Part shown: positions 38,374-55,434 of the stretch, piece by piece
Layout of the letters: each line of letters starts with the position of its first letter
Position numbering within the stretch: position 1 is the stretch's first letter
Source of the DNA: Thermococcus eurythermalis
GTDB taxonomy: Archaea; Methanobacteriota_B; Thermococci; Thermococcales; Thermococcaceae
Direction: 5' to 3'
DNA: 64,000 bases
NCBI RefSeq assembly: GCF_000769655.1
Contig: NZ_CP008887.1
Location: 310,001 to 374,000, forward strand
Notes under the pieces: model-generated
Told to the model about the DNA's origin: nothing
Database searches by the model: none
Seen by the model: the letters and a program-made list of their open reading frames with translations, nothing else
Position numbers and translations under genes: made by a program

Positions 38374-38604
38374 TCACTCGATGACCGAGGCGAAAGCGAA
38401 CTTCCTCTTGACGGAGTTAATCACAATCTCAACTTCGTCCCCGACCTGGGTGTTCGGGACGAATATAACGAAGCCCTGAATCTTGGCGATTCCATCGCCG
38501 CCCTTTCCAAGGCTCTCGATCTTGACAGTGTAGCGCTCTCCAACCTTAACCGGGGCTTCGCTCCCGTAGTCCCTTCCATATCCACCAAATCTATCTCCGT
38601 ACAT
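38374..38604 (-). CDS. Single TRAM-domain RNA-binding protein
   Basis: The 76-residue protein has a short Gly/Tyr/Arg-rich N terminus ([15 protein letters not shown]) and a TRAM barrel ([29 protein letters not shown]). Lone TRAM proteins in euryarchaea bind RNA and behave as RNA chaperones. A TATA-like element, TTTATATACC on the minus strand at about 38681-38690, lies upstream. ATG 38604 begins the natural protein. Confidence 0.9.
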
Positions 38605-38809
38605 ACACAACACAACCTTTCCATTTTCGGAACCTTCTCGAAAGACTCCGAGAAGAGTCCCATTGGGGAGTTAGCTGGAGGGTATATAAAGGTTTGCATT
38701 GAGAGCCGGCATCATTCTGGCCAACAGGTATTTCACGGATTCATAATGAACATCAGACCGTAAGTTCTCCACATGCAAAGCAAGGACCGAGAACAAACTC
38801 AAACGCTTC

Positions 38810-38859
38810 GTTGAAAACCCCTGGTTCAGTAAAAGCGGTTCAAAAAACGCCTTTTAACC
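38810..38859 (+). promoter_or_regulatory. Orphan SurR-type site plus BRE/TATA promoter
   Basis: GTTGAAAACCCCTGGTT at 38810-38826 exactly fits GTTn3AACn5GTT, the reported binding consensus of the Thermococcales sulfur-response regulator SurR. Fifteen bases further on, GTTCAAAAAACGCCTTTTA (from 38838) is nearly identical to the frh promoter sequence GTTCAAAAAACGCTTTTA at 40508. The first ATG downstream (38868) gives only ten codons. It may drive a noncoding RNA or a long leader of the dehydrogenase gene. Confidence 0.5.
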
Positions 38860-39104
38860 TCAATAATGGAAAGTCAAGTGTACAGAAAAAGGATTTGACA
38901 AAAATAAGAACGATTTAGACCTTTCACACTGCTCCCTTTTTAAATTTCAGCGGCTTTGACGTATGCTTTCAAGGCACTCTGAAATTAGTTAAATAAATCT
39001 GCTTTAATTAATAAAAAAAAGAAAACAAATTCGTGTTTAGTAAATTCCGTAATATTTTTATGCTTTTGTTTACCTTATTGGTTAAAATAATCAGAACTTT
39101 ACAG

Positions 39105-39160
39105 AACGTATTGTTAGAAACTGTTGGTTGTACATTTCTGGTTGTAAAAAGGCTTTTATC
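39105..39160 (+). promoter_or_regulatory. SurR-type site and promoter of the alcohol dehydrogenase gene
   Basis: AACGTATTGTTAGAAAC (39105-39121) is an exact reverse-orientation match to GTTn3AACn5GTT. A BRE/TATA-like GTAAAAAGGCTTTTATC follows at 39144-39160, and the ATG is at 39205. A site upstream of TATA suggests activation. SurR activates hydrogen-metabolism genes when sulfur is absent, in line with reported sulfur-limited expression of this type of Thermococcus dehydrogenase. Confidence 0.6.
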
Positions 39161-39204
39161 CTGCCCAAAGTATCTATGAATGAACACATTTGGAGGAATG
39201 TACA

Positions 39205-40425
39205 ATGTTGTGGGAGTCCCAGATCCCCGTAAACCAGGTGTTTGAACTCCGTTGCAGGGCCCTGACATACTTCGGCGTGGGGGCCATCAACAGGTTCTAC
39301 GACATAGCCAAGAACCTTAAGGAAAACCGCGGCATAACCAAGGTCATTCTCGTTACCGGAAGAAGCTCGTACAAGAAGTGTGGCGCCTGGGACGTTGTGA
39401 AGCCGGCCCTTGAGGAATACGGCATTGAGTACGTTCACTACGACAAGGTCGGCCCGAACCCAACCGTTGACATGGTCGACGAAGCCGCCCAGCTCGGTAG
39501 GGAATTCGGGGCACAGGCCGTCATTGGCATCGGTGGTGGAAGTCCGATTGACACCGCCAAGGGCGTTGCAATTCTGCTTGAGTACACCAACAAGACCGCC
39601 AGGGACCTTTACGAACTTAAGTTTACCCCGATGAAAGCGAAGCCCATCATAGCGATAAACACAACCCACGGAACCGGAACCGAGGTTGACAGGTTCGCAG
39701 TGGCTTCGATTCCAGAGAAGGAGTACAAACCGGCCATAGCCTACGACTGTATCTACCCGCTCTACTCGATTGATGACCCTGCCCTCATGACCAAGCTCCC
39801 AGCCGACCAGACGCGCTACGTAACCATTGATGCTCTCAACCACATTACTGAGGCAGCCACCACCAAGGTCGCCAGCCCGTACTCGATACTCCTTGCCCAG
39901 GAAACGGCAAGGCTGATATTCGACTACCTGCCTGAAGCTCTGAACCACCCGGACAACCTGCAGGCCAGGTACTACCTGCTCTACGCCTCCGCAATTGCGG
40001 GGATAAGCTTCGACAACGGCCTGCTCCACCTGACTCACGCCCTCGAGCACCCGCTCAGCGCAGTAAAGCCGGAGCTTCCACACGGACTCGGTCTCGCCAT
40101 GCTTCTGCCAGCGGTTATCAAGCACATCTATCCCGCCACCGCCAGGATACTCGCCGAGGTTTACAGGCCTCTCGTCCCAGAAGCCAAGGGGGTTCCAGGG
40201 GAAGCCGAACTCGTGGCGAAGAAGGTTGAGGAGTGGCTCTTCAACATCGGTATAACCGAGAAGCTCACCGACGTTGGATTCAGCGAGGAGGACGTTGACA
40301 AGCTCACCGAGCTGGCTATGACGACGCCAAGCCTAGACCTGCTTCTTTCGCTCGCCCCCATTGAGGCCACCAAAGAGAGAATCGCGGCCATATACAGGGA
40401 CTCACTGTACCCACTGAACAGATGA
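39205..40425 (+). CDS. adh: Iron-containing alcohol dehydrogenase
   Basis: The 406-residue group III dehydrogenase has the NAD(P)-binding GIGGGSPIDTAK, the family signature region TTHGTGTEVDRFA, and iron ligands around DALNHITEA, HLTHALEHPLS and LPHGLGLAM. It closely fits my memory of the Thermococcus ES-1 enzyme, which has the same length and reduces acetaldehyde to ethanol for disposal of reductant. ATG 39205 follows GGAGG. A SurR-type element precedes its promoter. Confidence 0.93.
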   Translation: MLWESQIPVNQVFELRCRALTYFGVGAINRFYDIAKNLKENRGITKVILVTGRSSYKKCGAWDVVKPALEEYGIEYVHYDKVGPNPTVDMVDEAAQLGREFGAQAVIGIGGGSPIDTAKGVAILLEYTNKTARDLYELKFTPMKAKPIIAINTTHGTGTEVDRFAVASIPEKEYKPAIAYDCIYPLYSIDDPALMTKLPADQTRYVTIDALNHITEAATTKVASPYSILLAQETARLIFDYLPEALNHPDNLQARYYLLYASAIAGISFDNGLLHLTHALEHPLSAVKPELPHGLGLAMLLPAVIKHIYPATARILAEVYRPLVPEAKGVPGEAELVAKKVEEWLFNIGITEKLTDVGFSEEDVDKLTELAMTTPSLDLLLSLAPIEATKERIAAIYRDSLYPLNR

Positions 40426-40493: not shown

Positions 40494-40527
40494 GTTCTAA
40501 ACCTTTAGTTCAAAAAACGCTTTTATC
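40494..40527 (+). promoter_or_regulatory. SurR-type site abutting the frh promoter
   Basis: GTTCTAAACCTTTAGTT (40494-40510) exactly matches GTTn3AACn5GTT. It is directly followed by BRE/TATA-like CAAAAAACGCTTTTATC (40511-40527). The hydrogenase gene begins at 40574. The tight spacing is compatible with activation by contact with TBP/TFB or with repression; position alone does not decide. Confidence 0.6.
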
Positions 40528-40573
40528 GTGCGTTTCGAATTCAAAAACAGAGTGAGAAGAGGAGGTGAGCGCT

Positions 40574-41746
40574 TTGGGCGAAGTAACCCTCGACAAGGTG
40601 TGCAGGATTGCAGGTGAGGCCAAGCTCATCCTGTACGAGGAAGACGGAATCGTTCAGGACGCCCTCTTCATAGCGACTGCCCCTGTGAGGGGCTTCGAGA
40701 AGATGGTGATCGGAAAGAACCCCCTCTTCGCAGTCGAAGCGGTCATGAGGATATGCGGCCTCTGCCACGCCTCCCACGGCATAGCGGCTAGTGAGGCCAT
40801 AGAGCACGCCATAGGCGTTACTCCCCCGAGGAATGGAAGGCTCATGCGGGAAGCCCTCGGCCTGATAAACAGGGCCCAGAGCCATGCACTGCTCTTCCTG
40901 ATGGTCGCGGGCGACTTGATTAAGGAAGAGAAGAGGAACGAAGTGCTCTTCAAACTCATGGACTTCCACGCGAAGATTAGCGACTACCTGCTAAAGCTCG
41001 GTGGCGCTGCGACACACCCACCGAACCTGACGATAGGCGGCATGCTCTCAGTTCCGAAGTGGAGCGTTTTCAACAACCTGAAGGCAAGGTTCAACGACCT
41101 CGTGACAAGCTGGGAGAGAATCGAAGAACTTTTGGTTGACGAGGACATTCAGACGGAAATTGCAGAGGAGCTCAGAGAGGCCAAAAGGCCGTTCAAGTAC
41201 CTTACAAGCGGCTTTTTCTACGGGGACAGGTACAACATCGAGTGGGAAAAGGTCTCAAGTGTTCCGTACTATGAGTTGCGGAAGGAGGAAGCAGCAAAGG
41301 AATCAACGACGCTCGTTTCATTCTACGACGGCGAGAAAGTTGAGACGGGGCCGAGGGCGAGGATGGTCACCTACCGTGAGTTCAAGGACGAGTCCCTCTA
41401 CGGCCTGCACCTCGCGAGAATCGAGGACACGAGACTGGCCATCCAGAGGCTCGGCGAAATCCTTGACGAGATAAGAATGGAGGAGCCCTTCAGGGCTGGT
41501 GACATAACGTTCAGGCCGGGGAAGGGCGTTGGAGTTTACGAAGCTCCAAGAGGGACGCTCATCCACTACGTCGAGCTCGGGGAGGAGGGAAGGGTTCTGA
41601 AGTCAAGGATAGTCGTCCCGACGATGTTCAACATCCCCGTTATGGAGGAGATGGCGAAGGGTCTGAGCGTTAAAGCCGCTGAGGCAGTTATGAGGCTCTA
41701 CGACCCGTGCATACCCTGCACAACCCACGTCGTGAGGATGAGGTGA
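40574..41746 (+). CDS. frhA: F420-type [NiFe] hydrogenase large subunit (FrhA-like)
   Basis: The 390-residue protein has both nickel-binding motifs, RICGLCHASHG in the N-terminal part and DPCIPCTTH at the C terminus. The latter is near the natural end, so any maturation tail is very short. It is smaller than most uptake hydrogenases and fits FrhA. Thermococcus Frh enzymes are known, for example in T. onnurineus; from memory, one was linked to thioredoxin reductase. TTG 40574 follows GGAGGTGA and is preferred over GTG 40565. Confidence 0.88.
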   Translation: MGEVTLDKVCRIAGEAKLILYEEDGIVQDALFIATAPVRGFEKMVIGKNPLFAVEAVMRICGLCHASHGIAASEAIEHAIGVTPPRNGRLMREALGLINRAQSHALLFLMVAGDLIKEEKRNEVLFKLMDFHAKISDYLLKLGGAATHPPNLTIGGMLSVPKWSVFNNLKARFNDLVTSWERIEELLVDEDIQTEIAEELREAKRPFKYLTSGFFYGDRYNIEWEKVSSVPYYELRKEEAAKESTTLVSFYDGEKVETGPRARMVTYREFKDESLYGLHLARIEDTRLAIQRLGEILDEIRMEEPFRAGDITFRPGKGVGVYEAPRGTLIHYVELGEEGRVLKSRIVVPTMFNIPVMEEMAKGLSVKAAEAVMRLYDPCIPCTTHVVRMR

Positions 41747-41751
41747 TGAGT

Positions 41752-42432
41752 ATGGAGAAGCTCAAAGTTCTTCACGTGGACTTCGGCGGGTGTGAGGGGT
41801 GCAACGTCAGCATAATCAGGGCGTATCCAAAGCTGATGAACGAGGTAGAGCTCGACATATCCTACCTCCGCGACGGTCCATGCAAGTACGATGAGTACGA
41901 CGTCGCTTTGATAACCGGTGGGGCCTGCATGAACGAGCCGAGGGTTCTCGAGGAGCTGAAGGAAATAAGGGAGAAGGCCAGGGTCGTTGTCGCCTTCGGC
42001 TCGTGCGCGGCACTCGGCGGAATATTGCGCTTCTGCCGCGGAGGCCAGGAGCCGAGGCCCGACCACAGGAACTTCCAGCCGATAAACAGCGTAATAACAG
42101 TTGACTACTCCATCCCAGGCTGTCCCCCAACACCGCAGATGCTCCAGTCGTTCTTCAAGTTCTTCATGGCTGGGAACGAAGCTAGGCTCAAGCTGTTCAA
42201 GGTAACCGCCGGCCTGAAGAAGCTGAGCGGGTTTGACCTCATCGACGACATAGTCCTGACGGGCCTCTGCATAGGCTGTGGCGCCTGCGAGCTTTCGTGT
42301 CCAACCGGCGCGATAAAGCTTGTGGATAAAAGACCGACCTTAATCCAGGAGAGGTGTATCCGTTGTGGAACCTGTTACATCCGCTGTCCGCGTGCGTCCC
42401 AGTTAATGTGCCTCGGGGGTGAAAAAACATGA
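41752..42432 (+). CDS. frhG: F420-type hydrogenase small subunit with two 4Fe-4S clusters (FrhG-like)
   Basis: The 226-residue protein has the proximal-cluster cysteines in GGCEGCNVS, GGACMNEPR, GSCAALGG and GCPPTPQ. A C-terminal ferredoxin module follows with CIGCGACELSCPTG and CIRCGTCYIRCPRA. It passes electrons from FrhA to FrhB. ATG 41752 with GAGGTGA upstream is favoured over ATG 41746. Its stop overlaps the frhB start (ATGA). Confidence 0.9.
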   Translation: MEKLKVLHVDFGGCEGCNVSIIRAYPKLMNEVELDISYLRDGPCKYDEYDVALITGGACMNEPRVLEELKEIREKARVVVAFGSCAALGGILRFCRGGQEPRPDHRNFQPINSVITVDYSIPGCPPTPQMLQSFFKFFMAGNEARLKLFKVTAGLKKLSGFDLIDDIVLTGLCIGCGACELSCPTGAIKLVDKRPTLIQERCIRCGTCYIRCPRASQLMCLGGEKT

Positions 42433-43259
42433 TGCCCGTTAGTGAAAGCCTTCTCGGGCAGTTTTATGGGGTTTACCTCGCCCGGGCGAAGGACGAGGAA
42501 ATACTCAAGAGGAAGGTCGCGAGCGGTGGAGCGGTAACGGCGCTCCTCTGCTACGCCCTCGACAAGGAGCTCGTTGATGGAGTTGTGACTTCAAAGAGGG
42601 TGAAGGGGTTCGAGGGCAGGGCTATTGTCGCCCGCAACAAGGACGAACTGCTCGATGCAGCAGGAAACAGCTGGAGCATTGTCCCATTTGCGGCAAGGAT
42701 AAAGGCTAAGATTGAAGAGGAGGACCTCAAAGAAGTCGCGGTAGTCTGCCTCCCCTGCCAGGCGCAGTTCTTCGGACAGATGAGGGACTTCCCGATACTC
42801 GAGACGGACTTCGGCAACAGGATTAAGTACATAATCAGCCTGTTCTGCATGGGCACGTTTGCATTCGAAGCCTTCCTGAACTACCTGCGCGTCAAGTATG
42901 GGGTTAGAGCTGAGGAGATAGAGGACATAAGGCTCTCAAGAGAATCCCTCGAAATCCACAGGGAAACGGGGGTTCTCGAGATACCGCTCAAGGAAGCATA
43001 CTCCTACCTCCAGACTGGCTGTCTGGTGTGCACCGATTACACGGGGCTGTGGAGCGACATCTCGGCTGGGTTCGTCGAAAGCGAGCCGGGCTGGACTGTT
43101 CTGATAACGAGGAATGCCCGCGGAGAGGAGCTCGTCAGGAGGGCAGAAAAGGAGGGATACATAGAACTTCGCGACGGTTCTTACGTCCTTGGAGACGTTC
43201 TAAAGAGGGCAAGGGAGAAGGTCGCCAGGGCTCAGAGAAACATGGCACATCTGTTCTGA
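42429..43259 (+). CDS. frhB: Coenzyme F420 hydrogenase beta subunit-like flavoprotein (FrhB-like)
   Basis: The 276-residue FrhB/FdhB-family protein has KVASGGAVTALLCYALDKE near the N terminus (flavin and F420 side), CLPCQAQFFGQM, and late cysteines in TGCLVCTDYTGLWSDIS that bind iron-sulfur. In methanogens FrhB carries FAD and reduces F420. In Thermococcus the acceptor may differ, since F420 is not central to this metabolism. The three frh genes form a compact operon. Confidence 0.88.
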   Translation: MMPVSESLLGQFYGVYLARAKDEEILKRKVASGGAVTALLCYALDKELVDGVVTSKRVKGFEGRAIVARNKDELLDAAGNSWSIVPFAARIKAKIEEEDLKEVAVVCLPCQAQFFGQMRDFPILETDFGNRIKYIISLFCMGTFAFEAFLNYLRVKYGVRAEEIEDIRLSRESLEIHRETGVLEIPLKEAYSYLQTGCLVCTDYTGLWSDISAGFVESEPGWTVLITRNARGEELVRRAEKEGYIELRDGSYVLGDVLKRAREKVARAQRNMAHLF

Positions 43260-43356
43260 CTCCTATTTTCTCATATCTCTTCTACGTGAGACCATCGCAG
43301 AAGACAGTGGAGCACCCAAAAACTGAACCTGGACTCAAGCACTTCTTTAACTTTTG

Positions 43357-43420
43357 GTTTACAACGAGCAGTTTCCTACCTTTTTTTGCCAACACAGAGC
43401 TTTAGAAAACTGTTTTAAGC
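43357..43420 (+). promoter_or_regulatory. SurR-type site and promoter of the mbh operon
   Basis: GTTTACAACGAGCAGTT (43357-43373) exactly matches GTTn3AACn5GTT. A BRE/TATA-like AGAAAACTGTTTTAAGC follows at 43404-43420, about 55 bp before the TTG start of mbhA. In Pyrococcus furiosus SurR activates mbh through such an upstream element, so this is probably the same arrangement. Confidence 0.7.
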
Positions 43421-55300: not shown

Positions 55301-55434
55301 ACTAACAGGATTAAGCTCGACGCGGAAACCCCTCCAGGCGAAATAAGGGTCGAGGTCGTGGTTTAAATACACACCGCTGGGCAATAATGCTTTTAAGTAT
55401 TCAACCAAAAGTTGGGAACTGGAGGTGAGTTAAG

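Follow-up and report, generated by a model that had tools for sequence, protein, structure and literature searches.

What is a SurR-type promoter doing where no gene follows it? The question arises in the window (the whole 64,000-nt stretch of DNA analysed, from the genome labelled G000) about 320 bp upstream of adh, on the same strand as that gene, which has a SurR promoter of its own. A sequence-only reading had proposed three answers: a sulfur-responsive noncoding RNA, a long adh leader, or the remains of a lost operon. We approached the choice by DNA search of a comparison set of 94 Thermococcaceae genomes, whose relatives of the window genome are labelled Gnnn.

The SurR-type match at 38802-38826 is real and non-random. 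The sequence GTTGAAAACCCCTGGTT at 38810-38826 (+) fits GTTn3AACn5GTT exactly and overlaps an exact match on the opposite strand at 38802-38818, the two forming a doubled palindrome. The window holds eight exact matches where 0.31 are expected, a count reached in none of 100 shuffles; genome-wide there are 55, compared with 5 for a reversed control pattern. Others in the window include an exact doubled palindrome at 43349-43373, past frhB, and an exact site at 55403-55419. A SurR motif upstream of BRE/TATA denotes activation, and this is the arrangement here: the long motif is followed at 14-15 bp by the BRE/TATA element CAAAAAACGCCTTTTAA (38841-38857), and the motif TGTACAG sits about 28 bp past the TATA centre. 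The element has GTTCAAAAAACGC and TTTTA in common with the frh promoter at 40508, with one base inserted. Behind it, no plus-strand ORF of at least 50 aa starts between 38826 and the adh ORF, the longest frame being of about ten codons (ATG 38867). The earlier description of the site, as an exact motif 15 bp before a BRE/TATA resembling that of frh and with no frame beyond about ten codons before the adh promoter, is thus borne out. Table 1 lists the features of the locus.

Table 1. Features of the orphan promoter and its surroundings, in window coordinates.
Feature	Position	Strand	Remarks
TRAM-domain RNA chaperone gene, left neighbour	38374-38613	-	NCBIfam NF053605; own TATA ~38684-38697 (-)
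SurR-type doubled palindrome AACn5GTTn3AACn5GTT	38802-38826		two overlapping exact GTTn3AACn5GTT matches; 1 mismatch in the five intact-operon relatives and G024
Conserved spacer CAGTAAAAGCGGTT, SurR site to BRE	38827-38840	+	nearly invariant in 7 genomes
BRE CAAAAAACG and TATA CCTTTTAA	38841-38857	+	TATA is CTTTTTAA in the other six genomes
Putative transcription start motif TGTACAG	38879-38885	+	invariant in 7/7 genomes; start probably A38882
Probable retained start of the lost operon's leader	38882-38912	+	homologous to the Fer4a-GltD-Fer4b operon leader in G040, G015, G090
Probable deletion/replacement junction	38907-38919	+	in G024 like leader AAGGACGCTAAAG and Fer4b last codons GAGGATGCTTTAA
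T-run CCCTTTTTAAA (38934-38943)	38920-38943	+	possible weak terminator; 38920-38943 identical in G000 and G024
Separate adh promoter	39105-39204	+	SurR doubled palindrome 39105-39129, BRE/TATA ~39144-39162, leader to ATG 39205
adh, iron-containing alcohol dehydrogenase (Fe-ADH)	39205-40425	+	Pfam PF00465
frh SurR promoter with frhA, frhG, frhB; downstream synteny anchor	40494-43259	+	motif and synteny

The sequence-only reading had recommended checking 38800-38950 for conservation in related genomes, and this check bears on the origin of the promoter. A block corresponding to 38797-38912 is present in 7 of the 94 genomes, at 81-89% identity. In five of them (G015, G090, G040, G088 and G092) it is immediately followed by an intact operon, Fer4a-GltD-Fer4b, encoding a 142-aa 4Fe-4S protein, a 356-aa GltD-like NAD(P)H oxidoreductase and a 167-aa 4Fe-4S protein; in the other two, G000 and G024, the block is kept and the operon is absent from the locus. 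In each of these five genomes an frh-type SurR promoter comes next after the operon, and in four of them it leads to frhAGB; in G040 (L033 2637-3496, -) the gene behind it is not frhA but that for FdhD. A diverged GltD-like/Fer4 pair, 78-79% identical, occurs elsewhere in the window genome (G000:C1:1786000-1791500, L048), behind Mrp-antiporter-like and hydrogenase-type genes.

Upstream neighbours vary among species, and the conserved block starts at the SurR site and is oriented toward the operon. This bears on whether the site might instead control the divergent TRAM gene, given that the palindrome is symmetric and only some 190 bp from the TRAM ORF. Such control is very improbable: the TRAM gene is served by a separate TATA (about 38684-38697), homology extends from the site in the plus direction only, and we reject the idea because further genes separate TRAM from the site in G024, G015 and others. 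The intervening genes differ: a zinc-type dehydrogenase and NAD synthase in G015 (L032 5425-7300), NAD synthase alone in G024 (L031 3948-4745), and none in the window.

The right-hand side of the locus has a different set of relatives. From 38988 onward the window matches DNA running from the operon end to Fe-ADH in genomes (G048, G046, G085, G081, G008 and G013) where a SurR promoter and Fe-ADH come after the same operon genes; 38988-40415 is 87% identical to G048. With operon-promoter homology on the left and post-operon homology on the right, about 2 kb has been lost or replaced. The order in the window would then be operon promoter and leader start, post-operon DNA, adh and frh, and the simplest route to it would be for the roughly 2 kb from the operon leader to the end of the third gene to have been deleted or replaced. 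Given a homologous promoter before the intact operon in five genomes, and no operon genes behind it here, we consider it highly probable (roughly 0.88) that what remains here is the promoter, with the start of the leader, of a SurR-type Fer4a-GltD-Fer4b operon stripped of its three genes. Of the three original answers it is thus the lost operon, on the strength of homologous promoters and shared gene order in five relatives, that has gained support; a noncoding RNA or a long adh leader could still be what the relic now provides, and for these we found nothing positive.

By description and gene order, the lost operon would be the counterpart of TON_0541-0543 of T. onnurineus and TK2073-2075 of T. 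kodakarensis. The former belong to the fdh3 cluster of T. onnurineus (PMC8965080), and both sets have been reported with a conserved upstream regulatory region (PMC5316973, PMC8965080). In those species the genes are present, whereas the window has the promoter and leader start only. Other SurR-controlled hydrogenase and electron-transfer promoters of Thermococcales (PMC12162507) likewise have an exact long motif upstream of BRE/TATA at a hydrogenase locus; the window promoter differs from them in having no gene left behind it.

The joint itself tells something of how the genes may have gone. In G024 it reads AAATAAGGATGCTTTAGACC, to be compared with AAATAAGGACGCTAAAGTAC in the G040 leader and GGGAGGATGCTTTAAC (Gly-Arg-Met-Leu-stop) at the end of the third operon gene in G046. 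Its resemblance to both leader and third-gene end places the joint within about a dozen bases common to the two, a pattern that fits, with moderate support, loss between short direct repeats. In G024 both operon ends can be made out plainly by visual inspection. Permutation gave p of about 0.014 for the G024 joint against G048 and G085 and 0.08-0.2 against G081 and G046; the window's own copy is eroded and not significant, so that the joint, a point on which the lost-operon reading might be faulted, is moderately supported in one orphan genome (p 0.014-0.2) and not in the other. The sequence past the junction bears no resemblance to the leader or the Fer4a start (p 0.18-0.70), which speaks against operon gene fragments continuing there.

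A further difficulty for the lost-operon reading is that the frh tree does not pair the two orphan genomes. In a tree of frhAGB, G000 branches before (G024,(G015,G090)) with support of 89/95; since G000 and G024 are not sisters, the orphan state marks no simple clade and a single simple deletion is insufficient. The adh protein of the window shares 94% identity with those of G048, G085 and G046, against only 77-78% for FrhA. Taken with the tree, this makes it likely that the segment recombined between lineages or was lost repeatedly; some such process, or regain, has to be invoked to explain the history. None of this alters the assignment of the promoter to the operon. Gene content varies at this locus in other ways. 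G024 keeps the Fe-ADH promoter with its doubled SurR palindrome (L031 2380-3577, -), and the gene behind it encodes a zinc-type alcohol dehydrogenase of 365 aa; here Fe-ADH is evidently swapped for a zinc-type enzyme behind the conserved adh promoter. In G022 the relic promoter is also gone and TRAM adjoins adh directly.

If the promoter is a relic, is it alive? Over 57 bp, the window departs from the intact consensus at 6 positions, compared with 2 in G024 and 0-1 in G015, G090 and G040. These changes, and the absence of anything useful downstream, suggest a promoter out of use and drifting, to which we assign somewhat less than even odds; against it, every landmark survives, from the SurR half sites through BRE and TATA core to the start motif, and the SurR match is exact. 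One of the six changes is what makes it so: the exact match at this promoter is peculiar to G000, CAC replacing AAC in the five intact-operon genomes and G024. Exactness thus appears partly derived, the site being imperfect in the other six genomes, and a motif better than in the intact relatives is unlike plain decay, a point that also counts against the lost-operon reading.

Conservation between the two orphan genomes is likewise equivocal. The relic unit is 90% identical in G000 and G024. Fourfold sites across the aligned window give 66%, a figure that is approximate because some of the ORFs counted are probably on the wrong strand. For frhA and frhG the fourfold figure rises to 75-82%, and the local background may therefore lie above 66%. 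The neighbouring region upstream of adh, at 84-85% identity, does not differ significantly from the relic unit (p 0.14). Purifying selection on the relic is therefore suggested by comparison with fourfold sites, yet indistinguishable from the state of the adjoining adh region, and we could not adopt it. Since the relic is conserved no less than the region of a live adh promoter, it may still fire; as it stands, the alignment gives neither clear decay nor clear proof of selection.

In its reduced form SurR binds upstream of BRE/TATA and switches on hydrogenase-type genes; once oxidised by sulfur it loses its affinity for DNA (PMC3407056, PMC12162507). A relic promoter still in use would be activated by reduced SurR without sulfur and silent with it. 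Its RNA would start near 38882 and would either stop at TTTTT (38937-38941), after about 60 nt, or run into adh as a leader of about 320 nt. The T-run that had been proposed to end a transcript of about 70 nt is indeed there, at 38934-38943; the length needs revising to about 60 nt.

The shorter product would matter most if the gutted operon had become a functional sulfur-responsive gene for a small RNA of about 60 nt (38882-38941) under selection. The T-run is well placed for this, no gene lies behind the promoter, the relic unit exceeds the fourfold figure by the margin given above, and the 31 bases of 38919-38949 are unchanged between G000 and G024. We nevertheless hold it distinctly improbable: the predicted fold is not stable (z-score 0.35), the site has no Rfam match, the RNA part occurs in just two genomes in the 94-genome search, neither the adh upstream region nor the frhA and frhG sites leave the relic standing clearly apart, and recombination between lineages could account for the similarity. 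Rfam does recognise a C/D box RNA elsewhere in the window, sR36 (RF01124; 9685-9739, -), scoring above the gathering threshold. The 24 nt CCTTTCACACTGCTCCCTTTTTAA (38920-38943) recur with 2 mismatches in G029 (L068 1508-1531), at what is probably the promoter of a MoaE-like gene, and in no other genome of the genus; this match may be due to chance.

The longer product would make of the relic a second, tandem sulfur-controlled start for adh mRNA. Position and strand suit such a role, the sole T-run able to stop a transcript before adh's own promoter region is short, and G024 keeps the arrangement before a different alcohol dehydrogenase; but adh's own complete SurR promoter suffices without the relic in G022 and in T. 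onnurineus-type genomes, and we regard a tandem promoter as unlikely, if less so than a small RNA gene. That gene loss sparing promoter, leader start and T-run yielded a new ~60-nt sulfur-responsive RNA gene, or else an extended adh leader under SurR control, selected in two Thermococcus lineages, is similarly a long shot. The weights given to drift, tandem promoter and small RNA overlap that of the lost operon because these are possible present fates of the same relic.

The intergenic ncRNAs of T. onnurineus NA1, which have TATA/BRE and low GC (PMC5316973), offer a parallel, in that the window likewise has a gene-less promoter and a low-GC, unstructured predicted product. The difference is that the origin of the window promoter can be traced to a lost operon, and that the case here is known from sequence alone. 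No pertinent paper emerged when we searched the literature for archaeal promoters orphaned by gene loss.

The locus thus offers a well-resolved case of a regulated archaeal promoter that has very probably outlasted its genes. SurR promoters persist at this locus even as the coding sequences they precede come and go: the operon lost, Fe-ADH replaced by a zinc-type enzyme in G024, frh by fdhD in G040. It is also a simple place to ask whether leftover promoters fall silent, become RNA genes or serve a neighbour; and if the small-RNA or long-leader reading were true, the emergence of a noncoding RNA out of a gutted operon could be traced here.
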